The notes under the pieces: generated by a model
What the model saw: only the letters and a program-made list of their open reading frames with translations
Told to the model about the DNA's origin: nothing
Database searches by the model: none
In this document: positions 32,887 to 64,000 of the stretch, one piece after another
Numbering within the stretch: the stretch's first letter is position 1
Layout of the letters: every line of letters begins with the position of its first letter
Program-made: the position numbers and the translations under genes
Origin: Parvularcula marina
Lineage (GTDB): Bacteria > Pseudomonadota > Alphaproteobacteria > Caulobacterales > Parvularculaceae
Assembly (NCBI RefSeq): GCF_003399445.1
Contig: NZ_QUQO01000002.1
Coordinates: forward strand, 124,001 to 188,000
Direction: 5' to 3'
Length of the DNA stretch: 64,000 bases

Positions 32887-32890
32887 CACT

Positions 32891-36034: not shown

Positions 36035-36068
36035 CCTTTCCAAAGTGTTGCGCGGTAGAAGGGGCGTC

Positions 36069-44072: not shown

Positions 44073-44073
44073 G

Positions 44074-46993: not shown

Positions 46994-47088
46994 TTTCAAG
47001 CTCCTTGATCTGCGACGGCGGGCGGGCGAGACGCTCACGGACAACCGCTCAGTAAACGTATGAGGTAGTGTGGGGTCTGGGTGGGTGA

Positions 47089-47115
47089 CGGCCCAGCGGC
47101 GAATCCGCCGGGCCG
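47089..47115 (-). other. GC-rich hairpin between two secreted-protein genes
   Basis: CGGCCC-a-GCGG / CCGC-c-GGGCCG around loop CGAAT, about 16 nt after the stop of the upstream secreted gene on the minus strand. It has no U-run, so it may be a processing/attenuation element that lets the first gene of the pair be expressed more strongly than the second. Confidence 0.5.
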
Positions 47116-47131
47116 CTCTCCCCACTATCGA

Positions 47132-48358: not shown

Positions 48359-50296
48359 GTGATCAGCGTCACCACGCAAATAGTCGGTCAGGGCGACCTC
48401 GTAGCGGAGGCACTGGCGCGGTCGCCCGTCACCGGGCGAATGCTGGATATCGGCCTTGGCCGGGGGCGAGCGGCGAATGCCTTTGCAGCGGCGGGCTGGT
48501 CCGTCTCCGCGACGGGGTTTGATGTCTCTGACTATATCTCTGACACCGAAGACCTCGCGGAAGTGATCGAGCTTCATGAAGGCATCGATATCTGTGACAT
48601 GTCGATCTTCGAAGATGAAAGCTTCGATGTCATCTGGTGCGCCCATGTGGTGGAGCATGTGCTCGACACGGGCAGGGCGCTGGCGGAGATCCGGCGGATC
48701 CTCAAACCGGGCGGCAAGTTTTTCATCAGCGTGCCGCCATTCAAGCCGGATATTGTCGGCGGGCATGTAAAGCCCGGATGGAATGTTGGCCTACTGATGT
48801 ATGTGCTGGCCGTTGCTGGATTTGATGTGCGTAGCGGCGCCTTCATCCGGCATGGATATAATATTTTTGGCGCTGTCGGCCGAGGGACAGGACCCCTGCC
48901 GCGCCACGTGCTGCGCTTTGCCAATGGCGATCTGGAGCTGCTGCAGCGCTATGGCCGCTTTCCCGAAGACTTCGATGCGCAGCAGGGGTTTGATGGCGAT
49001 ATACCGTCATGGAATTGGGAATGGCAGCAGGCGCCGGAAGAGCTGCCGCCAGCCAAACAGGCCCAAATGCCGGAGGAGGCCGCCGCCGAAGACGCGCCTC
49101 CGACCCATATCGTCCGGAAGCGGATGAAAATTGCGTTCTTTGTGCCGTGGATCACGAAAAGCCGCGGTGGAACGGAGAATGTCGGGCAGGCGATGGCGAA
49201 TGCCATGGCAGAGCGCGGTCATGAAGTGCAGATCTTCACATTCGACAATGACCGGGCGCCGTCTCGCTGGCCACTCGATCCCACGATCCGGCTCTGGCAC
49301 CTGCCAGAAGGGGAACCTACTGACGATCTCCTGTTAATGGCGGCCGTTGCGCAGGCCAATGTCGAGCTGATTGTCGGTCTGCACATGAACCGGACCTTTG
49401 GCCGCTATGTCAGATGCGCGCACCGTCTCGGCCTTCCGGTCGTTTTGTCAGAACATATCGATCCGCGCTTTCCGCAGCGGATCGGCGCCTTCACCGAGGA
49501 CGAGCGGCTGACATTCTTCAGTGGGGCCACCAAAATCCACCTCCTGGTCGAGGCGTTCCGCAAGACATTGCCGGAGAGCTTTCAGGACAGGATTGAGGTC
49601 ATTCCCAATACGGTGCCGCCCGCTCGTCGATTGGCAGAGCCTGCCGGTGTGGACGGAGAGCCTAAGACGATACTGGCCGTCTGCCGTTTGGTGCCGCGAA
49701 AGAATGTCGACCAGTTGATCAGGGCCTTCGCGAAGATCCTGCCCCTTGTCCCGGAATGGCGGCTGCGGATTGTTGGCGACGGGCCGGAGCTTGGCCGCTT
49801 GCAGTCACTGGCTAAAGAGCTGGGAGTTGCCGACTCTGTCGATTTTCATGGGTACACAGACGATACTTATGTCTGCTATGAAAAGGCGCAGATTTTCTGC
49901 TCTGCCGCCCTGTTCGAAGGTTTTCCCATGACCACGCTGGAGGCCATGGCGCATGGCTTGCCCTGCGTCGGCTTTGCCGCTTGCAACGAAATTTATGAGC
50001 TTATTTCATGCGGTGAAACAGGTTTTGTTTTTTCGGATAGAGTAGCCCACCAGAGTCTGGAGGCGCGATTGATTGAGCTAACTCAAGGACGTGAGCTGAG
50101 AAATCGCATGGGGAAATCTGGGTTAAATAAATATACGGAAGAATTCGGCGAAAACTATGTTCTTGATAAATGGGAATCTCTCTTCTTTAAGGCAGTATGT
50201 GGGGGATTAAAATATCTTAGTACGGAGTTGATTGAAGTGCATGAGGATCGATTGAACTCTTTTGCCTTCGCTTCCGATGATGAGATGCTGAACTAG
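48359..50296 (+). CDS. Fused class I methyltransferase and GT4 glycosyltransferase
   Basis: 645 residues, GTG start with a G-rich ribosome site. Residues 1-200 form a SAM methyltransferase (GRMLDIGLGRGRAANAFAAAG, FDVIWCAHVVEHVLDTGRALAEIRRILKPGG). After a linker rich in Pro/Glu/Ala (about 220-250), residues 255-620 form a GT-B GT4 enzyme: MKIAFFVPWITKSRGGTENV, LAVCRLVPRKNVDQLI, VGDGPELGRL, and the EGFPMTTLEAMAHG (E-x7-E) nucleotide-sugar site. It probably both methylates a sugar or chain end and transfers a residue. The final 100 codons become AT-rich. First gene of the cluster, 10 nt before the next. Confidence 0.88.
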   Translation: MISVTTQIVGQGDLVAEALARSPVTGRMLDIGLGRGRAANAFAAAGWSVSATGFDVSDYISDTEDLAEVIELHEGIDICDMSIFEDESFDVIWCAHVVEHVLDTGRALAEIRRILKPGGKFFISVPPFKPDIVGGHVKPGWNVGLLMYVLAVAGFDVRSGAFIRHGYNIFGAVGRGTGPLPRHVLRFANGDLELLQRYGRFPEDFDAQQGFDGDIPSWNWEWQQAPEELPPAKQAQMPEEAAAEDAPPTHIVRKRMKIAFFVPWITKSRGGTENVGQAMANAMAERGHEVQIFTFDNDRAPSRWPLDPTIRLWHLPEGEPTDDLLLMAAVAQANVELIVGLHMNRTFGRYVRCAHRLGLPVVLSEHIDPRFPQRIGAFTEDERLTFFSGATKIHLLVEAFRKTLPESFQDRIEVIPNTVPPARRLAEPAGVDGEPKTILAVCRLVPRKNVDQLIRAFAKILPLVPEWRLRIVGDGPELGRLQSLAKELGVADSVDFHGYTDDTYVCYEKAQIFCSAALFEGFPMTTLEAMAHGLPCVGFAACNEIYELISCGETGFVFSDRVAHQSLEARLIELTQGRELRNRMGKSGLNKYTEEFGENYVLDKWESLFFKAVCGGLKYLSTELIEVHEDRLNSFAFASDDEMLN

Positions 50297-50306
50297 GGGT
50301 AAGGAA

Positions 50307-53300
50307 ATGTCGCAGGAGGAAGGTGATGCATATCTCAACTTCAGGGATTTCCTTGATCTCGGAAGCGAGCGTCTCAAGCAAGCTGTCGACATCAGAGAAA
50401 AGGTTCTTTCTCTCCGTCAAAAGGAAGTGATTTCTAGTTACTCAGTAGATGTCTTGGAATCAGGTTACGGAGCTAATCTGGGTGGCTTGTTTCGTGGTCT
50501 TAAAAGCATTGATGAGGGTTTATATGCCTCAGATGCTAATATGCTATCACATGGAACGCTACTGCGATCTCAAAAATCATCTAATTTTAGAGCCGGTAAG
50601 GTGTTTGGGGGGTATAAGTCTGAAAATAACATTGTTCTGTATGAGACGGGATTTCTAGCATCAGTATACGGATGGATACATTCTTTTAAAAATCGCCGCC
50701 CTGAAATGTCTTGCTTGGGGTATGTCTATGATGACATCGCGCATTATTTCATGACGGATTATCCCAATCGTCTGATCCAGAAACTGAACAGTGATGCCGA
50801 ACTGAGCGATGCCGAGAGTGCGCGAGCCGAAGGTTTGATCAGACGCATCGTCGATCGAAGAATCAGCAAATATAACGCCCAGCCTTTTACAGCGCCTGCC
50901 ATGACGGAGGGATATTCTCGCCGTGTGCTCGTTTGTGACCAGAGCTACGCTGATGCCTCGACAATCTATGGCAAAATCAATACGCACGGCTTTGAATCTA
51001 TGCTGCTCGCCGCCATTCAGGAAAATCCTGATGCGGAGATATTGGTAAAATCCCATCCGGACACTTACTGGGAAAAATCAGAGCTCAAGAGAGAGAATCG
51101 TGCAGGCTATTTCGAGCACTTGCGTGACACCGGCCGGGTGCGCATTCTGCGTGAGCCGGTCAATCCTTATACGCTCTTTGACCTGGTCGACACAGTCTAT
51201 GTGGGCACCAGCCAGATGGGGCTTGAGGCGCTGTTTGCAGGCAAAAAGGTCGTCTGCTTCGGTGCACCTTTTTATGCCGGCTGGGGGCTGACCGATGACC
51301 GGCAGCCAGTGCCGCACAGGCATCGGAACCGCTCCCTGATTGAGCTTTTTCACTATTTTTATGATTGGTACACAATTTATCATGTGCCGGGATGTGCGGT
51401 CCCCAGCAGGATAGAAGATGCGCTCGATTTCATTGAGCAGCACCGTCCCTATGCACCGCCAATTGCCTTGCCGGCGACGGAGCGTCCGCCAAAAATTTCT
51501 GTCATTCTGCCGGTCTATGGGGTTGAGCAGTATATTGAGGAGTGCTTGCGCTCGATCCAGCGACAGACATTGGAAGATATCGAGATCATTCCGGTGAATG
51601 ACCAGAGCCCGGATGGCAGTCAGGCCATCATCGACCGGCTCGCGGCGGAGGATTCGCGCATTCGGCCGATCATCATGAAAGAGAATGTCGGGCAGGGTTT
51701 CGCCCGCAATGCTGGGATAAAGGCGGCACGCGGCGAATATATCTGGTTCATCGACTCGGATGACTACCTGGCTTCTCCAACTCACCTGGAGACGGTTTAC
51801 AATGTTGCGTGTGAAGATGGTGCAGATTTAGTCCGTGGACGAAAAAACATAGAGAGAATAGAGGATTCGAGCGGACAGCATTTGCGCGATCGTCGAGATG
51901 AAACCGAAAAATATTTCGATGAGAATTTTCAAAAGAAGACATTCGCAGAAGCTACGGTCTTGCTACACAGTAGGCATCACTGCCAATGGCTCTACCGGCG
52001 AGAATTTCTTCAGGAAAGTGATATAAAATTCACAACGCCCAAATGGGAGGAGCGCCCATTCCTTTTAAAAGCGCTGCTGAGCGCAAAGTGTATCAGCACG
52101 ACATCAAGTGAAGCTTTTATATATCGTATACGTCAGGATTCAACGGCAAGAAGGGAGAAAACCGCTCAGGACTACGAAGATCAAATCAAGAATTTTGAAG
52201 ATGTTGTTGAGCTACTGTCTATTGCGGGTGCTTTCGGGAGATCAAGCGAACTTTGGTATCATGCTAACTTCACAATAGCTCAGTATATACATTATATATT
52301 CTGTGGCTTTCCATATGAGTTAGTCAGCGCTGGAAAATTAAACATCCAGTCGGAAGAATTTTTCGATCGTATTCGAGAGGTGTTCCTATCCACGAACGTG
52401 AATTCCAACGATCTGGTATTTGATGCCTATGTTTTCAGCAAGTCTAAGCTGAAACCAAATGTATACAGATTAATCTTTGCGGCAATCAGAGCTGAAGAGT
52501 ACGACCTCGCCCGTACTGCAATAGAAGAAGCTCCGATCCCTCAAGAGAAGCTATATACGATTTATAAGGATGAGCCGTGCGATGAATTTGAAGCAGATCT
52601 CCAATATGCGCTGAACCTTTACGCCCGAAACGGGCTGGCAAAAGAGCTATCCGCGCGGCCGGATGTGTCGCTGGGAGCTTTACCCCGGATCGTCATCCAT
52701 ATCGGCGCGACCAAGACCGGCAGCACATTCCTTCAGCATTACATGGACCAGAACCGTCCGGCCTTGCTGCGAGAAGGGATCTGGTATCCTGAACGTGGGT
52801 TGTTCCAACAAAAGGGACGTCCACAAAAAGTAGCTGGCCAAGCAAATTTTGCTCCGGCTGCGGTGAAACGGGATCCATTCCTGCTCAACTATCTGCTGGA
52901 TGGCCTGCGCCTGATGAAAGGCCGTATCCATACGATTGTCCTGTCGAGCGAGGCATTCTTCCTCAATGCGAAGGCCGATATGCTGGCGGAGTATTTCCGC
53001 GGCTTTGATGTGCAGATGATCGCCTATCTTCGCCGTCAGGATGAATGGGCAAATGCGCAATATGCTGAGTTCGTTGCCGGTGGGGCCGTTGGTCGGATCG
53101 ATAAGGAATTCACAGAATGGCTGGAAAGCCCTGAGACCGCCGAACGGCTCAACTATCTCAACGTCCTTAACCGTTGGAACGAACGGATCGGCCGGGAGAA
53201 CATCATTGTACGCCCCTATGAGCGTTCGCAGTTTGTAGATGGTGACCTGATTGCCGACTTTGCGGCTGCCGCAAATCTGCCTGCGTTGGCAGTTCTGCCC

Positions 53301-54278
53301 TGGCCCGAAAAGAGCAAGTCGAATTCCTTCCCGTTGGGGAGTGAGCACCTGCCGATGTTCCGGCATTTCAACAAGCTCTCCTATCCGAGCCGGGAAGCGT
53401 ATCTCGACTTTGTCGAGGAGGCGACGCGCAAGATCACGGCCTATCGGGAGGAGATTGGCCGACCGATATCTAAGCCCTGGGCGCTTGCGGACGGCCAAAG
53501 CGAGCAGATCCTTGCCGATCATGCATCCGTCAACGAATCGATTGCCCGGCATTATATGGGACGTGAAGATGGCAGACTTTTCGAGGATATGACGCCGCGC
53601 GCTGGGGAGCCAGCGCCGACTGCTTTCGATGCGCGGGAATTCGAAATTCTGTCCAATGCTTATGAGTATCAGCTTAATAAGGCTGCGACGAAAAAACCCA
53701 AGCCAAAGGCAAAGCCCGCAGCGCCGCAGAAGGTCGTGACTGAAACTGTCACCTTGCAGGCCGTACCGAAACTTGCGCCGGGTGCTGTTAATTATGGGTT
53801 GTTCGGGTGGAGAAAGAAATTCCTTGCCCCAATCGTCGGGCGGTATCTCAAACCGCGTATTCCGACGCCGCTCTATCGTATTTATGACAAGGAGCCATCG
53901 CTCTATTTCAATTCCCTGCCGCATGTAAACCGTAACCTTGCCCACCGTGTCGTCTTTCCTCGGGGAAGTGTCTATGGGCCATTCGGTATCACGAAGATCT
54001 GGGTACCAATTGCATCGGCGGTCATCGGTGCATGGCGTGGGGACCGGATGAGGTCGACATTCGAGCAGGATCCGGTGATGTTCTTCCGGAATGCGAGGGG
54101 CGGGATGACGCGCCTTATCGGCCGGCTCCTTTTCCCGTTTGGGGAGCGTCCAGAAGATGTCCGCGAAGAGTTGCGGGCCGCCGGCTTTGTTTATGACTGG
54201 CACGGACAGCATGAACATCGGGCCGATCAGGCTGATCGTATCCGCTTCGGGCAGCTCAGCCATGGGGCGGCGGAATGA
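50307..54278 (+). CDS. Three-module glycan enzyme: KpsC-like transferase, GT2, sulfotransferase
   Basis: 1323 residues. Module 1 (about 130-380) resembles capsule-synthesis KpsC-type domains: RRVLVCDQSYADASTIYG, EILVKSHPDTYW, VYVGTSQMGLEALFAGKKVVCFGAPFYAGWGLTDDR. Module 2 (about 394-620) is a GT2: ISVILPVYGVEQYIEECLRSI, VNDQSPDGSQAII, GQGFARNAGIKAARGEYIWFIDSDDYL (DxD). Module 3 (about 792-1095) is a sulfotransferase: IHIGATKTGSTFLQHYM, the PAPS phosphosulfate loop, and IAYLRRQDEWANAQY. A KPKPKAKPAAP linker and a 190-residue unassigned tail follow. Codons 1-110 and about 490-770 are markedly AT-rich. Its stop overlaps the next ATG. Confidence 0.85.
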   Translation: MSQEEGDAYLNFRDFLDLGSERLKQAVDIREKVLSLRQKEVISSYSVDVLESGYGANLGGLFRGLKSIDEGLYASDANMLSHGTLLRSQKSSNFRAGKVFGGYKSENNIVLYETGFLASVYGWIHSFKNRRPEMSCLGYVYDDIAHYFMTDYPNRLIQKLNSDAELSDAESARAEGLIRRIVDRRISKYNAQPFTAPAMTEGYSRRVLVCDQSYADASTIYGKINTHGFESMLLAAIQENPDAEILVKSHPDTYWEKSELKRENRAGYFEHLRDTGRVRILREPVNPYTLFDLVDTVYVGTSQMGLEALFAGKKVVCFGAPFYAGWGLTDDRQPVPHRHRNRSLIELFHYFYDWYTIYHVPGCAVPSRIEDALDFIEQHRPYAPPIALPATERPPKISVILPVYGVEQYIEECLRSIQRQTLEDIEIIPVNDQSPDGSQAIIDRLAAEDSRIRPIIMKENVGQGFARNAGIKAARGEYIWFIDSDDYLASPTHLETVYNVACEDGADLVRGRKNIERIEDSSGQHLRDRRDETEKYFDENFQKKTFAEATVLLHSRHHCQWLYRREFLQESDIKFTTPKWEERPFLLKALLSAKCISTTSSEAFIYRIRQDSTARREKTAQDYEDQIKNFEDVVELLSIAGAFGRSSELWYHANFTIAQYIHYIFCGFPYELVSAGKLNIQSEEFFDRIREVFLSTNVNSNDLVFDAYVFSKSKLKPNVYRLIFAAIRAEEYDLARTAIEEAPIPQEKLYTIYKDEPCDEFEADLQYALNLYARNGLAKELSARPDVSLGALPRIVIHIGATKTGSTFLQHYMDQNRPALLREGIWYPERGLFQQKGRPQKVAGQANFAPAAVKRDPFLLNYLLDGLRLMKGRIHTIVLSSEAFFLNAKADMLAEYFRGFDVQMIAYLRRQDEWANAQYAEFVAGGAVGRIDKEFTEWLESPETAERLNYLNVLNRWNERIGRENIIVRPYERSQFVDGDLIADFAAAANLPALAVLPWPEKSKSNSFPLGSEHLPMFRHFNKLSYPSREAYLDFVEEATRKITAYREEIGRPISKPWALADGQSEQILADHASVNESIARHYMGREDGRLFEDMTPRAGEPAPTAFDAREFEILSNAYEYQLNKAATKKPKPKAKPAAPQKVVTETVTLQAVPKLAPGAVNYGLFGWRKKFLAPIVGRYLKPRIPTPLYRIYDKEPSLYFNSLPHVNRNLAHRVVFPRGSVYGPFGITKIWVPIASAVIGAWRGDRMRSTFEQDPVMFFRNARGGMTRLIGRLLFPFGERPEDVREELRAAGFVYDWHGQHEHRADQADRIRFGQLSHGAAE

Positions 54279-56389
54279 CAAACTGGATCATCAGCGGTGT
54301 GGCGCGGTCCGGCACGACGCTGCTGTATCAGATCCTGTTTGACAGCCTGCAGGCGGAGGGGACGCCCTTCACGGGCATTTATGAGCCATATCTGTGGGGG
54401 AGGGGCGTCTGGAATCTGTCGCCTGCTGATTTCCGTTCGGAATTCAATGTGACAGATAACCTTCATCCGTATGGGATTTATACTCATACAGAAACGCCGC
54501 TGCATCTAAATGGAAACCACGAGACACACGATGCGTTCCTGAGCACTATTCTTAGTAGAGGGCCGAATGCACTGGTCAAAGTCATCAGGGGGGCGGGACG
54601 ATTGCAGCCCATCCTGGATCATGGCCCCGATACGCGGATCATCCATCTTGTCAGGAACCCGCTGGATGTCTGTAATTCCCTTCTGAGTAATTTCTCTCCT
54701 TACGGGGATGAATATCATCCCAGTGACAGGGCACGGTTTCTCGCTGAGATCATTGCGGCGCGGACAGATGATTTTGGCAGGGCGCCGCAGACCGAAATGC
54801 AGTGGAATCTGTTGTGGTGGAAGCACATGAATGACTGGGCGTTTGAAGCGGCGGTCAAAAATCCGGATCGAGTGCTGATCCTGCCATATGAGCTTTGGGG
54901 GCATGACCCTTACTTATTCCTGAAACTCATCGGAGACTTCGCGCAGATCAGAACTTCAGGATTGTACAAAGAAGCATATACACGGCAGATCAAAGGCAAA
55001 ACGACCCGCAAGCTTCTGAAATCCGATGATGTGTCAGATGCTGAGCCCTATTTCAGGCGCTTTGTGGAATGGGCTTCTGGTTTGACGCAAGCGAAGTCTG
55101 ATGTGTGGACAAAGCATTTAAAGAGAGCCGGACAAAAATACGCATCAGGCAGTGTGGCTGGCCATTATTGCCCTTCACTCAAGCGGAATATGTCGAGCCT
55201 ACGGCTTCGAAAAAGTCATGCACATAATGCTAAGTACACAGAGTTACTCTTATGCAGTCAGCGGATCACCAAACGTGAAACTGTCGCCCGCCTGTCACGT
55301 CTTGCTGACGGCGCCAGTCAGTTGCAGTCAAGCCGAAAACTTTGGTATCTGAATTTTGCATTCAGAGATGTCATCAAGACAATCGATAATGTCGCGAGTG
55401 AAGCGCGCGTTGTGCATGAGCCGCTAGATGTCACTTGTGTCATTACTTCATTCAACAATGGCGCATATTTACGAGGGGCGGTTGATTCTGTCCTCAATCA
55501 GTCCAGGCCTGTCAAATCCATTCTTATCGCAGATGATTGTAGCCAGGACGGCTCGCAAGAATTTATTCGTCGATATGCTGAAGAAAACCCGCAGATCGAC
55601 TTCCTCTGCCGGGAGCAGAATATCGGTGTCGGGCGCAACCGTGATGATGCGTTCCGGCGCGCGGAAAGTGAGTTTGTTACTCAACTTGACGGTGATGATT
55701 TCATCTACCCCAAAAAGATCGAGCATGAGCTCCGGGCAATTGAAGTAGCTGGAGGTGATCCATCTACATTAGTTGCTTTTTCCGACATGATGAAGATTGA
55801 CGAGATGGGATTACAGCCAAATTCCCTTTCCGGGTTTGCTGAACTGCAATCGCGGGAGAAGAGGTTGGAAGCGCTCTTGCTGCGCCGAAATCCGCTGCCC
55901 CATAACATGACTTTCAGTAAACGTCTTTATCAGGAATGCGGTGGATACGATACTGAGGCCTGCCTTTACGAAGACTGGGGATTGAAATTACGTCTCGCTA
56001 AACATGCCTCAAACTGGGTTTATTCAGGTGTCGTCGGTCTGGTCTATAACCGGCATGGTCAGGGGCTTTCGGCGGCCGATCCGCTCGTGCATTGGTACTG
56101 GCGGCTTTATTGTCTCTCAGTCAACCGCGGATGGCTGATAGGTTCCGTCGGGCCAGAGATGCTTGTGCGGACGATCGCCAATATCAATGAGCAGATCGTC
56201 GGGCGACATGTATCGCAAGCGGATAATTGCAGCTTCCTCAGTCAGGCTAACACCGAGTATGGAGCGAGGCTTTTGATGAAAAAACTCAGTACATTGAGTA
56301 ATCCGAGAGCGTTGAACAAGAAGGGCGAGGGCGCCCTGTCGGAAAGTGTCAGGCGATTCTTTGCGGAAGAAAGTCTCTATGCGTATTAG
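54275..56389 (+). CDS. Sulfotransferase-GT2 fusion protein
   Basis: 704 residues, ATG overlapping the previous stop (ATGA). N-terminal sulfotransferase (about 1-300): the 5'-phosphosulfate loop NWIISGVARSGTTLLYQIL and the 3'-phosphate-binding IIHLVRNPLDVCNSLLSNF near residues 119-138. C-terminal GT2 (about 383-630): DVTCVITSFNNGAYLRGAVDSVL, ADDCSQDGSQEFI, NIGVGRNRDDAFRRAESEFVTQLDGDDF with the DGDD metal site near residue 472, and ECGGYDTEACLYEDWGLKLRL as the acceptor-side motif. Domain order is the reverse of the GT2-sulfotransferase order in the preceding protein. It presumably sulfates and extends the same glycan. Confidence 0.88.
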   Translation: MTNWIISGVARSGTTLLYQILFDSLQAEGTPFTGIYEPYLWGRGVWNLSPADFRSEFNVTDNLHPYGIYTHTETPLHLNGNHETHDAFLSTILSRGPNALVKVIRGAGRLQPILDHGPDTRIIHLVRNPLDVCNSLLSNFSPYGDEYHPSDRARFLAEIIAARTDDFGRAPQTEMQWNLLWWKHMNDWAFEAAVKNPDRVLILPYELWGHDPYLFLKLIGDFAQIRTSGLYKEAYTRQIKGKTTRKLLKSDDVSDAEPYFRRFVEWASGLTQAKSDVWTKHLKRAGQKYASGSVAGHYCPSLKRNMSSLRLRKSHAHNAKYTELLLCSQRITKRETVARLSRLADGASQLQSSRKLWYLNFAFRDVIKTIDNVASEARVVHEPLDVTCVITSFNNGAYLRGAVDSVLNQSRPVKSILIADDCSQDGSQEFIRRYAEENPQIDFLCREQNIGVGRNRDDAFRRAESEFVTQLDGDDFIYPKKIEHELRAIEVAGGDPSTLVAFSDMMKIDEMGLQPNSLSGFAELQSREKRLEALLLRRNPLPHNMTFSKRLYQECGGYDTEACLYEDWGLKLRLAKHASNWVYSGVVGLVYNRHGQGLSAADPLVHWYWRLYCLSVNRGWLIGSVGPEMLVRTIANINEQIVGRHVSQADNCSFLSQANTEYGARLLMKKLSTLSNPRALNKKGEGALSESVRRFFAEESLYAY

Positions 56390-56477
56390 GTGAAACGCTA
56401 AATCGATGCGTTCTTTTGCGATTTGCATATAGATTGAGCTTCATCCTGCTTGCTTTCTACTGGATGAGATATCAAAG

Positions 56478-57896
56478 CTACACGCCCTTGAGCCGGGTCA
56501 CATAGGCGGCGACTCTATTTTCTTGCCGGTATTCTGCGGCAGAAGTGTCGAGCAGGCGCTGGCGCTTCTCACGCTTGGACATCGCATCAAGGAGCGCGCG
56601 CGCCATGTCGATCGGGCTCGTACCAGTTCCGCCATGATAACTTTCCGCGACATGCCCCGGATAGGTCCCGGCTGTGGCGATCAGGAATTTACCCGCCGCG
56701 ATCGCTTCCGTGACGATCCCGGAGCTGCGCACGCGGTAATCTTTTGGGGTATAGGGCAGACAGACAGCATCCGCAGCCCCTAGCAAAGTGCGGTAATCGA
56801 GATCCGAGAGTGGTTCTTTCAGAAGCGTCAGTTTTTTCGGGTCGACTGCATCAAGTTTTTCCAGCGTGGCGGCGATAACCGGGTGCCGGCCGATGATCTG
56901 CGGGCTCGCATGAAGGGCGAAATGGATCTTCTCCGGCGCTGTGCCGGGAAACTCCTCTGAGCCGGCCAATTCAAAAGCGCGCCGGATAATGTCCGGAAAC
57001 AGATTAAAGCCCTTTTCGAGCCGTGCCGCGCCAAGGCTGATGGTCACGAAACTGTCCGGTGTGACGCGTAATTTTTCGGCGCGGAAATTCGCGGCCTCCC
57101 CTGAGATGTCATCCTGTTCAAGGACAGGTAAGGGGAGGGGGGCGACTTCGACTTCCCACAATTCGGTTAGGTGCCGGGCGAGAATCTCATTCTCTGCATA
57201 AAGATGAATTCTGGTGCCGATGAGGCCTGCCTCCTCCCATTCATGAATGGGTGCTGAGACCTCGGCCGCGCTTGCCCGGTTCGGCATGACCCCCACAGGG
57301 TCATAGGGAGTGCAGATATGGATGGTGGGGAGCAACACGGCTTCGTCCTCGGCTATCAGCGCGGCGACCGCCCGGTAGGTCGCGCCATCGGCCGTGTGAA
57401 AGAGGAGGTGGTCATCCGGCCCGGCGCCGCTTTCTTTGAGGCCCTCTTTCAGGCCTTCCGCCATTGAGCGGGCGAGGTCAGGCGCCGGCGGGGCCGTTTT
57501 AGGTCCTGAATTGCGCATGAAGCGCCCCAGTAGCCCCCGGCGGGCGACGGGTGTCTTGGTGCCCTTATAGGCGTCATACATGCTCTTTCCGAAGGTCGGG
57601 ATTGCCTCAGGGTGCTGGGCACCCAGACCCTCGCTCAGATCGGCACTGACGAGCCATGACGTCCTGAAGCCTGCCGCCTCCGCCGACGCAGCAACCGCGC
57701 GGGTGAGGTTGTAGTGATGCCCCCGGAGGTCGGTCAGGGAGGGGTCAGCGATCAGGAACAGGGGGCTCGGCACAGATTGCGCTTCCTTGAGGGCGGGACG
57801 GGCCCGTTCATAAGCCAGCTCGGCAAGCCTCTGTAACCCTTTAATTTCACGTGATTGAGGGCATGGACAGCGCCCGCCCGGCGGCGCTACGCGCAT
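56478..57896 (-). CDS. GT4-like glycosyltransferase
   Basis: About 472 residues from ATG 57896; a TTG at 58004 is in frame, but the intervening codons look like promoter/leader DNA, so the start is uncertain. The N-terminal half has LFLIADPSLTDLRGHHYNLTRAVAASAEAAGF, a typical GT-B acceptor-domain start. The C-terminal half has VTISLGAARLEKGFNLFPDIIRRA, DYRTLLGAADAVCLPYTPKDYRVRSSGIVTEAIAAGKFLIATAGTYPGHVAES (broken here into segments SSGIVTEAIAAGK), the E-x7-E equivalent. Convergent with the sulfotransferase-GT2 gene, divergent from sqdB. Confidence 0.75.
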   Translation of the reverse strand: MRVAPPGGRCPCPQSREIKGLQRLAELAYERARPALKEAQSVPSPLFLIADPSLTDLRGHHYNLTRAVAASAEAAGFRTSWLVSADLSEGLGAQHPEAIPTFGKSMYDAYKGTKTPVARRGLLGRFMRNSGPKTAPPAPDLARSMAEGLKEGLKESGAGPDDHLLFHTADGATYRAVAALIAEDEAVLLPTIHICTPYDPVGVMPNRASAAEVSAPIHEWEEAGLIGTRIHLYAENEILARHLTELWEVEVAPLPLPVLEQDDISGEAANFRAEKLRVTPDSFVTISLGAARLEKGFNLFPDIIRRAFELAGSEEFPGTAPEKIHFALHASPQIIGRHPVIAATLEKLDAVDPKKLTLLKEPLSDLDYRTLLGAADAVCLPYTPKDYRVRSSGIVTEAIAAGKFLIATAGTYPGHVAESYHGGTGTSPIDMARALLDAMSKREKRQRLLDTSAAEYRQENRVAAYVTRLKGV

Positions 57897-58024
57897 TCTC
57901 TGGATATCTGACCTTGCCGCGAGGCCCAGCGGCACTATAGAGGGTCGCAAATTTGGTAAAAGTGTCGCATTGGGCGCACTTTCCTTGACCCTGAAGACAG
58001 ACAAGCGGGCAGGATTACAGCGTT

Positions 58025-59215
58025 ATGAAAATTCTTGTAGTTGGTGGCGACGGTTTCTGCGGTTGGCCGACAGCCCTTCACCTTTCCAATGCAGGCCACG
58101 ATGTCCTGATCGTTGACAATCTTTCACGCCGGAAGATTGATATCGAGCTTGAGGTTGCCTCGCTCACCCCGATCCGGCCGATTTCAGTGCGCCTTGACGC
58201 CTGGGAAGAAATTTCCGGCAAGCAGATCGGTTTTGAGAACATCGATGCCGCGCAGGACTATGACAAGCTTCTGACCCTGCTGCGCAATTTCGAGCCGGAC
58301 ACGATCGTCCATTTTGCCGAACAGCGTGCGGCGCCTTATTCGATGAAGTCGAGCTCTCACAAGCGCTATACCGTCGACAATAACCTCTCCGCGACGCACA
58401 ACATTCTTGCAGCCGTTGTCGAGGCTGGTCTTCAGTCCACGACGCATATCGTCCACCTCGGCACGATGGGCGTTTACGGTTACGGCACGGCGGGCATGCG
58501 GATTCCTGAGGGCTATCTGACGGTCCATCTGCGGACCGATAGCGGTGAGGAAGTCACCAAAGAAATCCTTTATCCTGCCAATCCCGGGTCGATCTATCAC
58601 ATGACCAAGACCCAGGATCAGCTGATGTTCGCCTATTATAACAAGAATGACGGGCTGAAGGTCACCGACCTGCACCAGGGTATTGTCTGGGGTACACAGA
58701 CCGAAGAAACTCGTCAGGACGAGCGCCTGATCAACCGTTTCGATTATGACGGCGATTACGGCACCGTTCTCAACCGCTTCCTTATGCAGGCCGCTGTCGG
58801 CTTCCCGCTGACGGTTCACGGAACAGGCGGTCAGACGCGCGCCTTCATCCATATTCAGGATACGGTCAAATGTATCCAGCTGGCGATTGAGAATCCGCCG
58901 CAATCGCGTGAGCGGGTGCGCATCCTCAACCAGATGACCGAGACACACCGCGTTCGCGATCTTGCGAAACTGATCGCTGAAGTGACCGGTGCCAAGATCG
59001 AGAATGTCGTCAATCCGCGTAATGAGGATGACGAGAACGAGCTGCATGTCGAGAACCGCCAGTTGCTCGGCCTCGGTCTTGATCCGATCACGCTTCAGAA
59101 CGGGCTTCTTGAGGAAGTCACGCAGATTGCGAAGAAATATGCTGACCGCTGCGATCTGTCGAAAATCCCGTGCATTTCCTACTGGAATGACGATCGCCGC
59201 CCGGTTTCAAGTTAA
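58025..59215 (+). CDS. sqdB: UDP-sulfoquinovose synthase SqdB
   Basis: 396 residues. It replaces the 6-OH of UDP-glucose by sulfonate (from sulfite) to make UDP-sulfoquinovose. Diagnostic sequence: MKILVVGGDGFCGWPTALHLS (NAD-binding), VHFAEQRAAPYSMKSS, LGTMGVYGYGTAGMRIPEGYL, YHMTKTQDQLMFAYY (the Tyr-x3-Lys pair), DLHQGIVWGTQTEETR and ETHRVRDLAKLI. This is an SDR sugar-nucleotide enzyme of normal length. There is no sqdX/sqdC/sqdD next to it; instead a GT2 follows 36 bp downstream. Either it serves membrane sulfolipid synthesis or it feeds sulfoquinovose into the glycan made here. Confidence 0.96.
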   Translation: MKILVVGGDGFCGWPTALHLSNAGHDVLIVDNLSRRKIDIELEVASLTPIRPISVRLDAWEEISGKQIGFENIDAAQDYDKLLTLLRNFEPDTIVHFAEQRAAPYSMKSSSHKRYTVDNNLSATHNILAAVVEAGLQSTTHIVHLGTMGVYGYGTAGMRIPEGYLTVHLRTDSGEEVTKEILYPANPGSIYHMTKTQDQLMFAYYNKNDGLKVTDLHQGIVWGTQTEETRQDERLINRFDYDGDYGTVLNRFLMQAAVGFPLTVHGTGGQTRAFIHIQDTVKCIQLAIENPPQSRERVRILNQMTETHRVRDLAKLIAEVTGAKIENVVNPRNEDDENELHVENRQLLGLGLDPITLQNGLLEEVTQIAKKYADRCDLSKIPCISYWNDDRRPVSS

Positions 59216-59251
59216 ACCGCCGGTTACGGCTTATCATTCAAGAGGACCGGC

Positions 59252-60064
59252 ATGACGATCACGATCTTCATGCCGGTCCTTAATGGCGCTTCGTTTATTG
59301 CAGAAGCCATAGCTTCGATTGAGGCGCAGACCTCGCCGGACTGGCGGCTCTGTGTTCTTGATGGGGGCAGTACAGACGGCACGCTCGATATCGCCTCCGC
59401 CCGATGTGAAGCGGATAGCCGGGTCACCGTTCAGAGCGCCCCAGATGACGGGCAATATCCCGCGCTGCTCAACGGGATCCTTTCAACAGATTGCGACCAT
59501 GTCGGCTGGCTGAATGCCGATGATTTGATGCCGCCCTGGGCTGTGGCTGAGGCTTCGCGTGCTTTTGCTGAAACGGGCGCTGACTGGATTTCCGGTCTGC
59601 CGTCCCTGTGGGACAGTGAGGGGCGGTTACGTGCCGTCTATCCGCTGGCGCGGCGCTCCCGGCGGCTGATCCGGGCGGGCTGGTATCATGACGGGCTTCT
59701 TGGTTGCCTACAGCAGGAAAGCATGTTCTTCCGTAAACGACTTATCGAGGGGATGAGCGCAGCTGAGCGGGATGAGGTGACGGGGCATCGTCTGGCCGGT
59801 GATTTTGCGCTGTGGCGTGCCTTTGCGCGGCAGGCGAGGCTGATGGCGGTGCCGGTCGTGCTTGGCGGTTTCCGGCGGCATGGCCAGAACAGGTCGTTGC
59901 TCGATGGGCAGTCTTATGCGGAAGAAGTCAGTGAGATGGGCGGGAAAGACTTTCCCGGATTTGTCGCGCGAAAAATCAGATCCGTGCACGATTATTTAGC
60001 AGCCATCGGATCACTGAAGGCGGCCCGAAAATCTGCTGAAATGCTGGCGCGTGAAGGCGAATAG
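59252..60064 (+). CDS. GT2 family glycosyltransferase
   Basis: 270 residues with the GT-A core: TITIFMPVLNGASFIAEAIASIEAQTSPDWRLCVLDGGSTDGTLDIA, the LNADD metal motif, and GLLGCLQQESMFFRKRLIEGM plus HRLAGDFALWRAFARQA as acceptor-side elements. It resembles the WcaA-type GT2 of exopolysaccharide clusters. Donor and acceptor unknown; position directly after sqdB makes UDP-sulfoquinovose a candidate donor by inference only. Convergent with the next gene. Confidence 0.85.
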   Translation: MTITIFMPVLNGASFIAEAIASIEAQTSPDWRLCVLDGGSTDGTLDIASARCEADSRVTVQSAPDDGQYPALLNGILSTDCDHVGWLNADDLMPPWAVAEASRAFAETGADWISGLPSLWDSEGRLRAVYPLARRSRRLIRAGWYHDGLLGCLQQESMFFRKRLIEGMSAAERDEVTGHRLAGDFALWRAFARQARLMAVPVVLGGFRRHGQNRSLLDGQSYAEEVSEMGGKDFPGFVARKIRSVHDYLAAIGSLKAARKSAEMLAREGE

Positions 60065-60076
60065 CGGGCGCTATCC

Positions 60077-61945
60077 TCAGAAATGATCCCAGATCTCGTC
60101 CGGCGTGATCATGTTAAAGGGCGGGGCCCGGAAGACTGGATTGGCGCCGAAATGGGTCGAGCTGTGACCCATGCCGAAATTATAGATTAGGCGCTCCCGG
60201 CTCGGACGATGGGACATGCCGCGCATGGCCGTCAGCAGGGCGACTGTTTCATCCCAGGCAAAGAAATTAGTGATCGTGTTGAGGGGGTCACGTCCCGGCG
60301 TTGCCCGCAATCTCGCCTCGACATCCGGCGTGAGGGCGCGGTTGACGAAGTCGAGATAGTCATCCTCGCTCATCATGTAGCAATCGCGCAGGTCCGGCCA
60401 GATCGACATCATCTTGTCGCGGGTCGTTGCCCATCCCCACCCCTGAAAACGCGGGAAGCTCTCCTCATTCTGCTCAAGGCCGAAATGGTGACCGTAGACG
60501 GAGAAAATGCCGTCATCCTTCTCAATCGCGGATAGCTCGCAAGAAAATCCCTTCGCGGCATGGCGGGTCGGAAAGCAGTCATCTTCAAGAAAGAGCGCAT
60601 GCTCATACATCTCGAACATGCGCTTGATGCTGAGGATCATCATCTTGCGGAAACCGAAATTTCCGCGCTGGCGGTGAATGCCGGCGATATCGTATGATCG
60701 AGCAATCTCTTCGGTGCGGTCGATAATCTGTCGTTTCGCAGGCCGCCCCTGATCGCCATCAATGAAGACATGTACCGTAGAAAGCGCATCCTGCAATTTC
60801 AGGCTTTCGAGGACAGCCTCGAGATTTTGTGCGCGGTCATAGGCGAAAACGGCGATACCGAGCGGCTTTTCCTGTGTCCATCCTGCATAAAAGGACGCTG
60901 ACTGACCAGTTTTCCTTTGAATATTGTCAGGTGCCGCAGGGAGTTTCGTAGTCTCATCGGTGGCATGCTGTGAATCATGATCCTGATGACCAGCTTCGAC
61001 GGGGATACCATGTTCATCAAATTTGAGGTGGCCGGATTTGACGAGGCCCCGCATGCGCATCACGAAACGCAATGGCTTTAGACTGAATATATTCTTCCAC
61101 CGAGGCGCCAGCACATTGTGTAGCTGTCCAAGCCGACGATGGGCGCGGTCGAGTTCCGATTTCAGGCTCTCAAGCTCGGCGGCGAGTTCTGCTCCTGACA
61201 TCCGGGCGCGGGCAGCCTCAGCCTCAGCCCGTTTCATCCGGGCGAGCATGTCAGTGGATGTCAGATCTGCCTTTGTGGTCTCGCTAGGGAGGGCGCGTTC
61301 CATATGGGCAATCTTCAGGCGGATTGAGAGCTCCTGCATGACTGGGATGAGGTTGCTGCGCTTGTGCGCCGTTCTGGGCAGATAGCCGAATTTTGCCATC
61401 TGCTCAGCATTCAGTACTTCAATCAGTGTAATGATTTCAGGTGTCAGATAGGCATGCGAGGAAAGCTCGGCGCCGAGTTCTTCGAGGGTGGTCTGGTCCA
61501 CACTTTTTGCAGGCTTAGACTCCCGACCAAGAAAGCCCGCCAGTTTCTCGATTGCCGCGGGTAGGTCTTCCAGCAATTCTTCACAGGTCAAGAAGAGGGT
61601 GTTGGCTCGGTAGGTTGGGGACCAGCTTTTTACATGATCAGCCCACGATCCGAATGGTGAATTGCCCAGAATGACGTCACGATAATCGATCGCGCCTGTA
61701 TCCTGTGTATCTGTGTCTCGCCGTGCCGATGCAATGACGTCTCGGGGATCCCGGATGAGATAGATGGCTTTTGCCTTGTCCTGAGGTTCATCATGCGTTT
61801 CGACGACATGAAGGTCTTTGGACTGAGTGATCTCTGAATAGGTGATCTCGCTTGCCGAACTGACGGGCAGGTCAAAGCCTTGCTGCAGCAGGGTGCGCAG
61901 AAATCGACTTCCCGAATGGGGATAGGAGGCGAGCCAGACAATCAT
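60077..61945 (-). CDS. Sulfotransferase-coiled coil-GNT-I-like glycosyltransferase fusion
   Basis: 622 residues. Residues 1-170 are a small sulfotransferase: MIVWLASYPHSGSRFLRTLL (phosphosulfate loop) and AIYLIRDPRDVIASARRDTD (residues 60-79, 3'-phosphate site). Residues about 225-275 are a coiled coil (RMKRAEAEAARARM, LAAELESLKSELDRAHRR). Residues 350-622 form a GNT-I/GT13-like GT-A domain: LGIAVFAYDRAQNLEAVLESL, HVFIDGDQGRP, GNFGFRKMMILSIKRMFE, LFLEDDCFPTRHAAKGF with the EDD metal motif near residue 452, and QGWGWATTRDKM. It is the third protein in the locus that joins sulfation with sugar transfer. Confidence 0.85.
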   Translation of the reverse strand: MIVWLASYPHSGSRFLRTLLQQGFDLPVSSASEITYSEITQSKDLHVVETHDEPQDKAKAIYLIRDPRDVIASARRDTDTQDTGAIDYRDVILGNSPFGSWADHVKSWSPTYRANTLFLTCEELLEDLPAAIEKLAGFLGRESKPAKSVDQTTLEELGAELSSHAYLTPEIITLIEVLNAEQMAKFGYLPRTAHKRSNLIPVMQELSIRLKIAHMERALPSETTKADLTSTDMLARMKRAEAEAARARMSGAELAAELESLKSELDRAHRRLGQLHNVLAPRWKNIFSLKPLRFVMRMRGLVKSGHLKFDEHGIPVEAGHQDHDSQHATDETTKLPAAPDNIQRKTGQSASFYAGWTQEKPLGIAVFAYDRAQNLEAVLESLKLQDALSTVHVFIDGDQGRPAKRQIIDRTEEIARSYDIAGIHRQRGNFGFRKMMILSIKRMFEMYEHALFLEDDCFPTRHAAKGFSCELSAIEKDDGIFSVYGHHFGLEQNEESFPRFQGWGWATTRDKMMSIWPDLRDCYMMSEDDYLDFVNRALTPDVEARLRATPGRDPLNTITNFFAWDETVALLTAMRGMSHRPSRERLIYNFGMGHSSTHFGANPVFRAPPFNMITPDEIWDHF

Positions 61946-62002
61946 GCAAGGAGGCGTTATCAGGCTCCGGGTCCGCGGGGAAAGGCTTTTGGCAACAAGC
62001 GC

Positions 62003-62746
62003 CTAGCCTTTTCCGTGAAGACCACATTCGGACTTGTCGAGACCGCGCCAGCGGCCCGCACGGGCGTCTTCTCCGGCTTTCACCTTGGAGGTGCAGGGAT
62101 AGCAGCCAATGGAGCCATAGCCCTTGGAGAGAAGCGGATGGACAGGGAGTTCGTGTTCGATCTGATAGGCGCGGATCGTGCCGGCGTCCCAATTGGCGAG
62201 CGGATTGATTTTGAGCCGGCCATCGTCTCGCTCAACGATCGACATCACGGAGCGGATGTCAGACTGATAACGCTTACGGCCATTAAACCAACTGTCGAAC
62301 GGCGACAGGGCGCGTTTGAGGACGTCCGTCTTGCGAATGCGGCAGCATTGGTCGGGGTTCGTTGCACTGAGGGTGCCCAGCGGGTCGAACTCTGCGAGAT
62401 CGGATTTGCGCGGGTAGCTCGAGCGAATGTCCTCGAGACCTAGAACATGCTGGAGCTGATTGCGGTATTGCAGCGTTTCCCCGAACAGCTTGCCGGTATC
62501 GAGCATAACGATGGGCAGTGCAGGCTCGACCTGCGCGATCATGTGCAGAAGAACGGCTGACTCAGCGCCAAAGGAAGAAACGGCAGCACAATGGCCAAAC
62601 AGGGCCTGACGGCGCGCCAGCGCATCCTCGATGATCTCCTGCGGCGTCAGGGTCTCGTAAAGGTCATTGAGGTCGGAAATCTCGCGCAAAAGGGCGCGTT
62701 CAGAGGCGCCGGGGAGAATGCTGTCTCGATTGCGGAGATCTACCAT
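62003..62746 (-). CDS. cysH: Iron-sulfur adenylyl-/phosphoadenylyl-sulfate reductase CysH
   Basis: 247 residues. SSFGAESAVLLHMIAQV is the PP-loop for the adenylyl moiety; Cys134-Cys135 and Cys215-x-x-Cys218 form the CC...CxxC set that binds [4Fe-4S], a mark of the APS-reducing class; ECGLH (240-244) carries the catalytic Cys. It makes sulfite from APS or PAPS. Sulfite is also the sulfur source for SqdB, so the enzyme fits the sulfoquinovose branch encoded 3 kb away, besides cysteine synthesis. It stands between a sulfotransferase fusion and the exporter genes, all on the minus strand. Confidence 0.93.
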   Translation of the reverse strand: MVDLRNRDSILPGASERALLREISDLNDLYETLTPQEIIEDALARRQALFGHCAAVSSFGAESAVLLHMIAQVEPALPIVMLDTGKLFGETLQYRNQLQHVLGLEDIRSSYPRKSDLAEFDPLGTLSATNPDQCCRIRKTDVLKRALSPFDSWFNGRKRYQSDIRSVMSIVERDDGRLKINPLANWDAGTIRAYQIEHELPVHPLLSKGYGSIGCYPCTSKVKAGEDARAGRWRGLDKSECGLHGKG

Positions 62747-62817
62747 AGTCTTTGCGTAAGTCGCCGTCGGGCGTTGGTCAATAATGTTGCCATATGTGGC
62801 AGATGCTCATGGCGAAA

Positions 62818-63588
62818 TCAGGGCGCAGCGGCGGCTGCCGCCTTGTCAGCCACCAGCTTGTCCTGAAACTCAAAGGCTTCTTCCAGTTCTCCACAAAAAA
62901 GGATCTGGCCTTTGTCCATGACCGCGCCCTTGTTCGACATCCGCCTATGCAGGTCTCGCGAGTGGGTCGCGAAGACGAAAATCCGGGAATCCTGAATGAT
63001 CTGGCGCAGGCGGCGGGCAGCCTTGTCGCGGAACTCTAGATCGCCTGTGCCAAGCCATTCATCGAGCAGGATGACTTCGGGCTGGAAGGCTGTTGAGACG
63101 GCGAAGCTGAGCCGCATGCGCATACCGCTGGAATAGGTCTTGATCGGCAGGTCGAGATAGTCGCCGAGTTCTGTGAATTCGGCGACGTCAGGCGTGATCT
63201 CGTTGATCGCGTCATCGCGGAAGCCCATCAGCCGCCCCCGGATCCGGATATTCTCCATGCCGGTCGCTTCATTATCGAGGCCAAGCTGGATCGAGGTGAG
63301 AGGAGAGATGCGCCCTTCAACGGTCACACTACCGGCATTGGGCGGCAGGATGCCTGCCATCGTCTTGAGAAGCGTCGTTTTGCCCGCCCCATTATGGCCG
63401 AGCAGGCCCAGACGGTCGCCGTCTTTGAGCTCTAGCGAGATGTGGCGAAGCGCCTGAATGGTGACTTCTTTTTCCGCTGAAATCAGCCCGCCGAGCAGGG
63501 TCGACTTGGTCGTCGCCATCAACCCTTTGCGGTGGAAATGCGGGACCGGATAGCCGACCGAGACATTCTTGAGAGAAACGCGCGCCAT
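62818..63588 (-). CDS. Polysaccharide ABC exporter ATPase (Wzt/KpsT-like)
   Basis: 256 residues. Walker A GLLGHNGAGKTTLLKTMAG, Q-loop region, signature TYSSGMRMRLSFAVSTAF, Walker B PEVILLDEWLGTGD, and switch ATHSRDLHRRM. The ISPLTSIQLGLDNEATGMENI segment is typical of O-antigen/teichoic/capsule exporters. There is no C-terminal carbohydrate-binding module as in Wzt of the O9a type, so end-group recognition is not encoded here. Its GTG/ATG follows the permease stop by 3 nt. Confidence 0.93.
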   Translation of the reverse strand: MARVSLKNVSVGYPVPHFHRKGLMATTKSTLLGGLISAEKEVTIQALRHISLELKDGDRLGLLGHNGAGKTTLLKTMAGILPPNAGSVTVEGRISPLTSIQLGLDNEATGMENIRIRGRLMGFRDDAINEITPDVAEFTELGDYLDLPIKTYSSGMRMRLSFAVSTAFQPEVILLDEWLGTGDLEFRDKAARRLRQIIQDSRIFVFATHSRDLHRRMSNKGAVMDKGQILFCGELEEAFEFQDKLVADKAAAAAAP

Positions 63589-63591
63589 TCG

Positions 63592-64000
63592 TCAGCACCA
63601 ATAGGGAAGGCGGTGGGAAAACCGGCCGTAAACGAGCAGTCCAGCGACCATCGACAGAATGGCAATCGCGCCGGTGACGATAAAATGCAGGGCGATATCA
63701 TCGCCGCCTAATAGCGGTCCACGGACAGTCTGGATCATGTGATAGAGCGGATTGAAATCAACGACCCAGCTGTATGGCCCCAGCCGGTCAGCCGTCCAGA
63801 AAATGGGGGTGACGAAGAAGGCAAAGCCGAACATCGCGCCGACCATCTGACCAAAATCACGGAACCGCGCATTGATAACCCCAAGCGCGAGGCTGGACCA
63901 AAAGCCGATCCACGTCAGAAGTGCAAAGCCGATGATCGCCAGGGCCGATAAAGGTGTGAACGGGACGCCAAAGATCATCATTACACCGAAGAGCACAATG
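63592..64000 (-). CDS. Polysaccharide ABC exporter permease (Wzm/KpsM-like), 5' truncated by the window
   Basis: The frame is open to the window edge and ends at a TAG near 63592-63594, giving about 136 C-terminal residues. Helical segments LSALAIIGFALLTWIGFWSSLALGVINARFRDFGQ (in parts), MVGAMFGFAFFVTPIFWTADRLG, FNPLYHMIQTVRGPLLGG and IVTGAIAILSMVAGLLVYGRFSHRLPYWC show the ABC-2 membrane domain with the conserved NPL/ARFRDF motifs. It forms the channel for the ATPase encoded next to it. Confidence 0.9.
   Translation of the reverse strand, partial: IVLFGVMMIFGVPFTPLSALAIIGFALLTWIGFWSSLALGVINARFRDFGQMVGAMFGFAFFVTPIFWTADRLGPYSWVVDFNPLYHMIQTVRGPLLGGDDIALHFIVTGAIAILSMVAGLLVYGRFSHRLPYWC

Follow-up and report, generated by a model that had tools for sequence, protein, structure and literature searches.

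A Parvularcula marina glycan locus combining a divergent SqdB-like enzyme, CysH, an ABC exporter and sulfotransferase-glycosyltransferase fusions

Sulfoquinovose is known mainly from sulfolipid and from archaeal N-glycans, and Agl3-dependent sulfoquinovose is used in the S-layer N-glycan of Sulfolobus. Among bacterial sulfated exopolysaccharides, the synechan cluster of Synechocystis is reportedly a cyanobacterial example. Here we describe a glycan locus in a stretch of 64,000 nucleotides from Parvularcula marina (NCBI RefSeq assembly GCF_003399445.1, contig NZ_QUQO01000002.1, positions 124,001 to 188,000 of the forward strand), hereafter called the window. As the first-pass annotation of this window had noted, sulfotransferases of the type that uses 3'-phosphoadenosine 5'-phosphosulfate (PAPS), an SqdB-like enzyme, the adenosine 5'-phosphosulfate (APS)/PAPS reductase CysH and an ABC-2 exporter occur together in it. 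Each of these enzyme types is known, and it is the arrangement that is new: a particular SqdB subfamily partnered by CysH, together with fusions between sulfotransferase and glycosyltransferase domains. We read this as an accessory locus that probably directs the synthesis of a surface glycan which is exported and carries O-sulfates as well as a sulfoquinovose-type sugar, by a mechanism reconstructed from gene content.

The SqdB-like enzyme, here called E, resembles SQD1 of Arabidopsis and Agl3 of Sulfolobus acidocaldarius in its near-full-length homology and its short-chain dehydrogenase/reductase (SDR) motifs. Unlike these two enzymes, it has valine in place of Glu147, and E-type genes lie in bacterial glycan loci, often near CysH. 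As in the Agl3 N-glycan route, UDP-sulfoquinovose would feed a surface glycan and not a lipid, yet the present system is bacterial and comes with Wzm/Wzt, sulfotransferases and CysH. The sulfated capsule of Cobetia marina KMM 1449 likewise involves an ABC-transporter cluster, PAPS genes and a sulfotransferase (PMC11766843). The available part of that paper describes a sulfotransferase, glycosyltransferases, a kpsSC operon and dTDP-Rha and GDP-Man supply, and mentions neither SqdB nor a sulfotransferase-glycosyltransferase fusion. According to the accessible portions of two further sources, an Actinoplanes exopolysaccharide cluster has two sulfotransferase genes (PMC13390465) and Pontiella encodes putative glycosaminoglycan sulfotransferases (PMC7356697). 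The fusion, sought under six wordings, gave no match in the searched literature. A bacterial glycan locus with SqdB, CysH and a sulfotransferase was likewise not apparent from the titles and abstract openings of the best matches, which in two cases were 20 of 2,782 and 20 of 825 papers and mostly lacked sulfoquinovose altogether; with subscription journals mostly outside the search, this is weak evidence of absence.

The locus comprises 12 genes, A to L, spanning positions 48359 to about 66112 in window numbering, with the cluster end beyond the window end. The named in-window genes are intact single open reading frames (ORFs) whose boundaries agree with the first-pass annotation. GNT-like denotes the glycosyltransferase domain of G.

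A, 48359..50296, plus strand: S-adenosylmethionine methyltransferase (residues 13-126) fused to a GT4-type glycosyltransferase (429-588), by Pfam
B, 50307..54278, plus strand: KpsC-like module (about 50703-51440), GT2 domain (51498-52016) and C-terminal sulfotransferase (about 52689-53696)
C, 54275..56389, plus strand: N-terminal sulfotransferase (residues 5-276) and GT2 domain (388-497), by Pfam
D, 56478..58004, minus strand: glycosyltransferase-like, unclassified; recurrent partner of the GNT-like domain
E, 58025..59215, plus strand: SqdB-like SDR enzyme of a divergent subfamily, with TMGVYGYG in place of TMGEYG
F, 59252..60064, plus strand: GT2 glycosyltransferase, by Pfam; counterparts in L157, L158, L160 and G113
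G, 60077..61945, minus strand: sulfotransferase (61316-61945, probably decayed), coiled coil (about 61037-61258) and GT-A domain closest to GT13 (60080-60898)
H, 62003..62746, minus strand: CysH, iron-sulfur APS/PAPS reductase, by NCBIfam and alignment
I, 62818..63588, minus strand: Wzt-type ABC ATPase; below the cut-off of the galactan-export Wzt/RfbE model
J, 63592..64000 (window edge), continuing to window position 64416, minus strand: Wzm-type permease, homologous to the permease beside Wzt in related loci
K, beyond the window: FkbM-type methyltransferase, named by homology and by eye
L, beyond the window: GT2 glycosyltransferase, named by homology and by eye

Genes A, B and C are closely packed, with a gap of 10 bp between A and B and the start codon of C overlapping the stop of B by 4 bases; J, I, H and G are consecutive genes on the minus strand. 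After L the cluster is bounded by M23-peptidase-like, ChpT-like and ispDF-like genes (named by eye).

In the proposed route, CysH would reduce APS or PAPS to sulfite for E, and E would add this sulfite to a UDP-hexose to yield UDP-sulfoquinovose or a close sulfonated sugar. A lipid-linked chain containing the sulfonated sugar would be assembled by D, F, the GT13-like half of G, and L. The sulfotransferase domains of C and B would O-sulfate some residues while the fused transferases act, with PAPS coming from likely CysD/CysNC genes elsewhere in the genome, and Wzm/Wzt would export the product. A primer residue, of Kdo type or another, may be added by the KpsC-like part of B. That sulfation is coupled to chain elongation is something we infer.

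E is homologous to SQD1 over residues 2-387 (PDB 1qrr, E value 4.6e-96) and shows the NAD-binding SDR features, with YxxxK and EQR/TMG motifs. The first-pass annotation had called it a UDP-sulfoquinovose synthase; the SqdB-like homology stands, and the precise name is not secured by the sequence. Against the UDP-sulfoquinovose synthase equivalog model NF041015, E scores 341 bits, below the cut-off of 575. All ten sequences scanned fall below this cut-off, and since these include the Glu-type outgroup L119 (443.5 bits), the score alone is not decisive and the cut-off may just be strict. At the position of Agl3 Glu147, which is Glu in SQD1 too, 40 of the 41 sequences aligned have valine, E included; the sole exception is L119, which is 38% identical. 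Mutants of Agl3 described in the available part of one study retain 12% (E147A) and 15% (Y148A) of dehydratase activity, and H95A, R101A, M145A, Y182A and K186A are inactive (PMC4388408). The prevalence of valine, the low model score and these residual activities would fit a subfamily whose product is not the expected one but, for instance, a 5,6-ene or some other hexose that is dehydrated or sulfonated. We consider this rather unlikely, though the strongest of the alternatives: the counterparts of His95, Arg101, Met145, Tyr148, Tyr182 and Lys186 are by eye all kept in E, among them the positions at which alanine inactivates Agl3, and a sulfite-making CysH is often found close by, as follows.

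The annotation of H as CysH is borne out by the NCBIfam equivalog model (251.6 bits against a cut-off of 154) and by the alignment, which contains CC...CxxC and the C-terminal ECGLH, presumably the iron-sulfur cysteines and the catalytic cysteine. To place H in context, we inspected SqdB neighborhoods at 34 of 108 places (high-scoring ones plus a hand-picked spread) found in a search of relatives, together with 6 from the scan for GNT-like domains described below; L157 and L158 duplicate L082 and L110 and were left out of these counts. The stretches are about 20 kb or less, some ended by contig ends, and the ORFs come from a longest-ORF filter that misses small genes and sets some starts too far upstream, so that CysH distances were taken from trimmed starts. 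Of the 40 loci, 9 have CysH no more than 300 bp away from the SqdB-like gene (8 of 34 from the relatives search and 1 of 6 from the scan), 6 have it within 200 bp, and 11 have it on the same stretch, against a random expectation of about 0.09 loci within 300 bp (three genes per 3.4-Mb genome). This proximity supports both the sulfite supply and the sulfonated sugar, and we find it more plausible that CysH provides sulfite to E than that it is an unrelated sulfur gene. In the window itself, H is 2.8 kb from E. At L119 (G180, 1-16800), a Glu-type SqdB gene is followed about 50 bp downstream by CysH, with a Wzt-like ATPase and GT4/GT2-like genes, so that, judging by gene order, CysH pairing is not confined to the valine subfamily.

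H as the sole assimilatory CysH was rejected, because another CysH and a likely CysD/CysNC pair occur elsewhere in the genome. The one strong APS kinase match, in a 686-aa frame, comes right after a 300-aa frame of the PAPS_reduct family, and we read the two as CysNC and CysD. The source genome also has seven PF00685 matches.

Genes D to J, together with L, are clustered in P. lutaonensis (G005, L082/L157), in an alphaproteobacterial metagenome-assembled genome (MAG; G084, L110/L158) and in a genome from the same order but a different family (G113, L084/L122), and these core genes are therefore not scattered over unrelated loci in relatives. Gene order varies among the three core loci, and K is present in G084/L158 and G113. 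Seven genes flanking the cluster in the window were not found near the three core loci by tblastn in stretches of about 20 kb or less. With the core kept together and the flanking genes not found there, the core looks like an accessory glycan locus. SqdB-like genes with E values of 1e-30 or better occur in 96 of the 199 genomes searched, the source genome included. In the SqdB tree, E groups with G005, G006 and G113 within the group of the window's family (support 100/97), and the placement of G113, from the other family, suggests that the locus was transferred between lineages. The four genus-mates inspected (G002, G004, G005 and G006) carry an SqdB of another clade that is missing in the source genome. 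A plasmid search returned 6 records, none covering 80%.

Two short peptide patterns from the alignment of GNT-like domains were used to scan 84,980 species genomes and recovered at least 27 loci. Family D is present in 12 of the 27, and SqdB in 8 of the 12 with D and none of the 15 without (Fisher p 2e-4), among them loci of Chromatiaceae and of a Nitrospirota MAG. Three of the four loci with D and no SqdB are on short stretches (3-12 kb); the fourth, L159, is on 20.8 kb. An alignment search for the domain across the class gave distant matches in 4 other genomes of 385. D itself has no Pfam match, and a profile of its family against the PDB gives only a weak match to 2f9f (E value 0.037, the C-terminal half of a GT4 enzyme).

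Three sulfotransferase models, built partly from loci then found with them (L157, L158, L160, L163 and L167), detect a sulfotransferase in 8 of the 27 loci: L157, L158, L160, L161, L163, L165, L167 and L169. A single protein joins the sulfotransferase to the GNT-like domain in the window and likewise in L157, G113 and L158. The G homologue of L158 carries a C-type and not a G-type sulfotransferase, and by this comparison the domain ahead of the GNT-like one is swapped there. In L160 the two are separate neighboring genes, each of which has its own coil and the basic motif that they share; L161 has them as overlapping ORFs by a run of N, and in L169 the sulfotransferase adjoins the GNT-like domain. 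Elsewhere this domain occurs on its own or has GT2 or an FkbM methyltransferase as its fusion partner. Fusions produced by sequencing error were rejected, as each of B, C and G is read in one open frame and the sulfotransferase-GNT fusion is present in other genomes.

More broadly, and tentatively enough that we would not yet favor it over its negation, a valine-type SqdB subfamily, fed with sulfite in several lineages by a dedicated CysH, may be the source of a sulfonated sugar in exported surface polysaccharides of bacteria as far apart as Parvularculaceae and purple sulfur bacteria. The GT13-like enzyme and D would form a recurrent pair handling this sugar, and sulfotransferases would repeatedly fuse to or dock by the GT13-like enzyme, so that the glycans would carry O-sulfate in addition to C-sulfonate. 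If sulfoquinovose or a relative of it does occur in bacterial surface polysaccharides, these would be an overlooked reservoir of organic sulfonate in marine bacteria, and the SqdB-CysH pair would be a genome marker for sulfonated surface polysaccharides.

E could instead serve a membrane sulfolipid, sulfoquinovosyl diacylglycerol (SQDG), its position in a glycan locus being incidental and the locus product only an O-sulfated polysaccharide. SQDG occurs in related Hyphomonadaceae, and E is the only SqdB-like gene found in the source genome at E value 1e-30, which speaks for this alternative; literature searches gave nothing useful on sulfolipid in Parvularcula. On the other side, of the SqdB-like genes of relatives that were checked, one (L094) sits among polysaccharide genes resembling rmlB, rmlD and rmlA and a second (L102) adjoins an initiating transferase for sugar phosphates, the association of the GNT-like domain, D and SqdB crosses phyla, and no sulfolipid synthase was recognized beside E, though no dedicated model was used. 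We regard a sulfolipid role as improbable and prefer a surface glycan as the destination of the sugar.

The three sulfotransferase-glycosyltransferase fusions proposed in the first-pass annotation are real, C by Pfam, G by Pfam and fold, and the sulfotransferase of B by a profile and a low-confidence fold. G is a 622-aa protein with Sulfotransfer_1 at residues 29-151 (62.7 bits against a cut-off of 22), a coiled coil and a GT-A domain. The sulfotransferase part matches SULT2B1 in the PDB (E value 1.1e-14), but its key residues are altered: YPHSGSRF and VETH stand where L157, L122 (G113) and L160 have YPRSGNTF and KTH, that is, His for Arg in the PAPS loop and Glu for Lys in the KTH motif. It is also about 25 residues shorter than in L157 between the two motifs. 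The roles of the 5'-loop basic residue, the 3'-loop Arg/Ser and the KTH motif are those known from SULT/TPST work. The predicted local distance difference test score (pLDDT) of the G model is below 50 across most of this part, and the structure is thus uninformative on it. The sulfotransferase of L161 (UBA4496) shows a comparable loss (FPGSGCEL, FSTH). With the PAPS-loop basic residue, the KTH Lys and some 25 residues lost, cis sulfation by G is doubtful, and this half is probably decayed, a relict or a binding or scaffold domain in this strain.

The C-terminal domain of G has a confident model (10-residue means of 82-98 from residue 351 onward), and the GNT-I-like label given to it earlier is fair, since the top seven Foldseek matches are POMGNT1 and GnT-I chains (GT13; 5ggi with E value 9e-11, 1fo8, 1foa). 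It also has an EDD-type motif, which we take to be as in these enzymes. It differs from POMGNT1 and GnT-I in sharing 13-16% identity with them, in being bacterial and in its fusion to a sulfotransferase and coil, and other GT-A families match little less well, from E value 5e-8 (e.g., hyaluronan synthase and SpsA). This half has no Pfam match at E value 0.01, so it is not assigned to GT13 by sequence, and a profile of the GNT-like set gives a weak match to chondroitin synthase (E value 7e-4). A basic motif after the coiled coil (approximately LAPR, L-x-P-[LV]-R, R-x2-[VI]-K-[SA]-G) is common to the middle of G and the C-terminal ends of L109 and L111. It is found in sulfotransferase proteins with and without a glycosyltransferase and is perhaps a membrane or complex anchor.

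B (1323 aa) does hold the two domains earlier ascribed to it and is larger than described, with a KpsC-like module that had been overlooked; its three modules are KpsC-like (PDB 6mgc, E value 8.5e-41; Pfam Capsule_synth), GT2 (recognized by Pfam) and a C-terminal sulfotransferase. For the last of these (about residues 795-1130), Pfam gave no match and a single-sequence phmmer search of the PDB was empty at E value 5, but a profile of B and seven homologues (n = 8) matches the sulfotransferase 3rnl (E value 5e-8). Its predicted fold is of low confidence (pLDDT 62.7, pTM 0.65). Every one of the top 23 Foldseek matches is either a PAPS sulfotransferase or NDST1, and P-loop kinases appear at rank 24 and below; the top 23 include 3rnl, heparan 3-O-sulfotransferases, NDST1 and TPST, with query TM scores of 0.31-0.41. 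ATKTGST, with its Lys, and the Arg of LRRQD are kept, and Ala stands where 6 of the 8 aligned sequences have the Ser of the 3'-phosphate loop. C (704 aa) exceeds the cut-offs of Sulfotransfer_3 and Sulfotransfer_1 (39.0 against 27 and 37.7 against 22 bits) and contains Glycos_transf_2; its sulfotransferase agrees with the family in motifs as well, VARSGTT and VRNPLDVCNS being kept.

B and C have a G+C content of 0.51, compared with 0.55-0.61 in the other ten cluster genes and 0.58-0.61 in other stretches of the genome. This lower G+C and their absence from the three other core loci make B and C look like later additions to the locus. The low G+C in B is limited to its KpsC and GT2 parts (0.47-0.49, against 0.56 in the sulfotransferase part), and B may therefore itself be composite. 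For A, too, blastp gave no counterpart at the other three core loci. A repeat search around B and C for signs of insertion gave short matches only. The three-module architecture of B was not found in 385 genomes of the class, in which no match extended beyond a single module, either KpsC or GT2; the two best candidates per genome were scored, with frames of up to 1019 aa left uninspected. A search of 199 genomes placed homologues of the B sulfotransferase in 17 others; the frames holding them are 237-730 aa long, and three of these read as stand-alone ORFs. Relatives of the C sulfotransferase are found in G053, G084, G001 and G168, the last with the full C architecture (L112, 691 aa).

The three fusions had been taken as one coherent cis-sulfating machine. 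This view does not survive the comparison: G+C content and distribution separate B and C from G, we reject three equivalent fusions, and what is found is a conserved core with one decayed fusion and two added ones. That all three sulfotransferases are active and sulfation obligatorily coupled to elongation in cis would agree with the reality of the fusions and with the joined or adjacent domains of several loci, but in view of the residues lost from G, the Ala in the phosphate loop of B and the lack of a detected sulfotransferase near the GNT-like domain in most of the 27 loci, we give it very little credence. With these fusions, a link between sulfation and chain building can be put to the test, and the decayed domain of G indicates that residues need to be checked before fused domains are counted as active.

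The KpsC-like module of B and the ABC-2 exporter raise the alternative of a KpsC-dependent capsule locus of the group 2 type with acquired sulfur chemistry. Group 2 capsules depend on separate KpsC, with two GT modules, and KpsS. The module of B resembles the KpsC Kdo transferase, but unlike KpsC it is a single module fused to GT2 and sulfotransferase domains, and no KpsS was found. It is the sole PF05159 match in the genome, with no separate KpsC or KpsS found, and we reject a standard KpsC/KpsS capsule on this ground. The other core loci moreover lack B, and the ATPase I best fits the galactan O-antigen Wzt model NF050108 (222 bits, below the cut-off of 400). A group 2 origin in the looser sense is accordingly hard to credit, and we retain the accessory surface-glycan locus as the better account.

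Several observations weigh against this account, beyond the model score and the valine of E already given. B and C are without counterpart in the three other core loci, and the sulfotransferase of G has lost basic residues, so that O-sulfation may not be a core function. Among the 34 SqdB loci that came from the relatives search, the three sulfotransferase models detect the domain in no more than 3 (L082, L084 and L110), and not in most of the CysH-paired ones; CysH is not seen in 5 of the 8 loci with both a GNT-like domain and SqdB. At L159, the coil-GNT protein has no sulfotransferase, and SqdB is not seen in its 20.8-kb stretch. Finally, the exporters of L157 and the window share just 24-44% identity, which means that the transporter may have been exchanged.

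The Wzm/Wzt-like exporter itself is confirmed, with ATPase and permease paired beside glycosyltransferases and the Wzm gene extending past the window. Distant Wzm/Wzt pairs with an L-type GT2 also accompany SqdB at L087 (G023) and L089 (G083), the former with CysH as well, and no sulfotransferase was detected at either with the models used. Four Poly_export and five Wzy_C matches in the source genome mean that, on gene content, other polysaccharide systems coexist there. In the window, a Wzy_C protein (O-antigen ligase/polymerase family; 36021-37328) lies distant from the locus beside a LytTR-domain gene, and a MurJ gene is found at 31276-32907.

Elsewhere in the same genome, at L123 (G000:C1:1325001-1345000), a 1099-aa protein with two GT2 domains (9681-12980) adjoins a 572-aa protein (13082-14800) that has a sulfotransferase domain and, probably, a coiled coil, a possible second sulfated-glycan site. 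Just upstream of the locus, at window positions 46481-47500, we observe by eye two small, secreted-looking low-complexity proteins, one Gln/Gly-rich and the other Ser/Tyr/Asn-rich, preceded by a sigma-factor/Ser-Thr kinase pair at 43470-46446 (also by eye).

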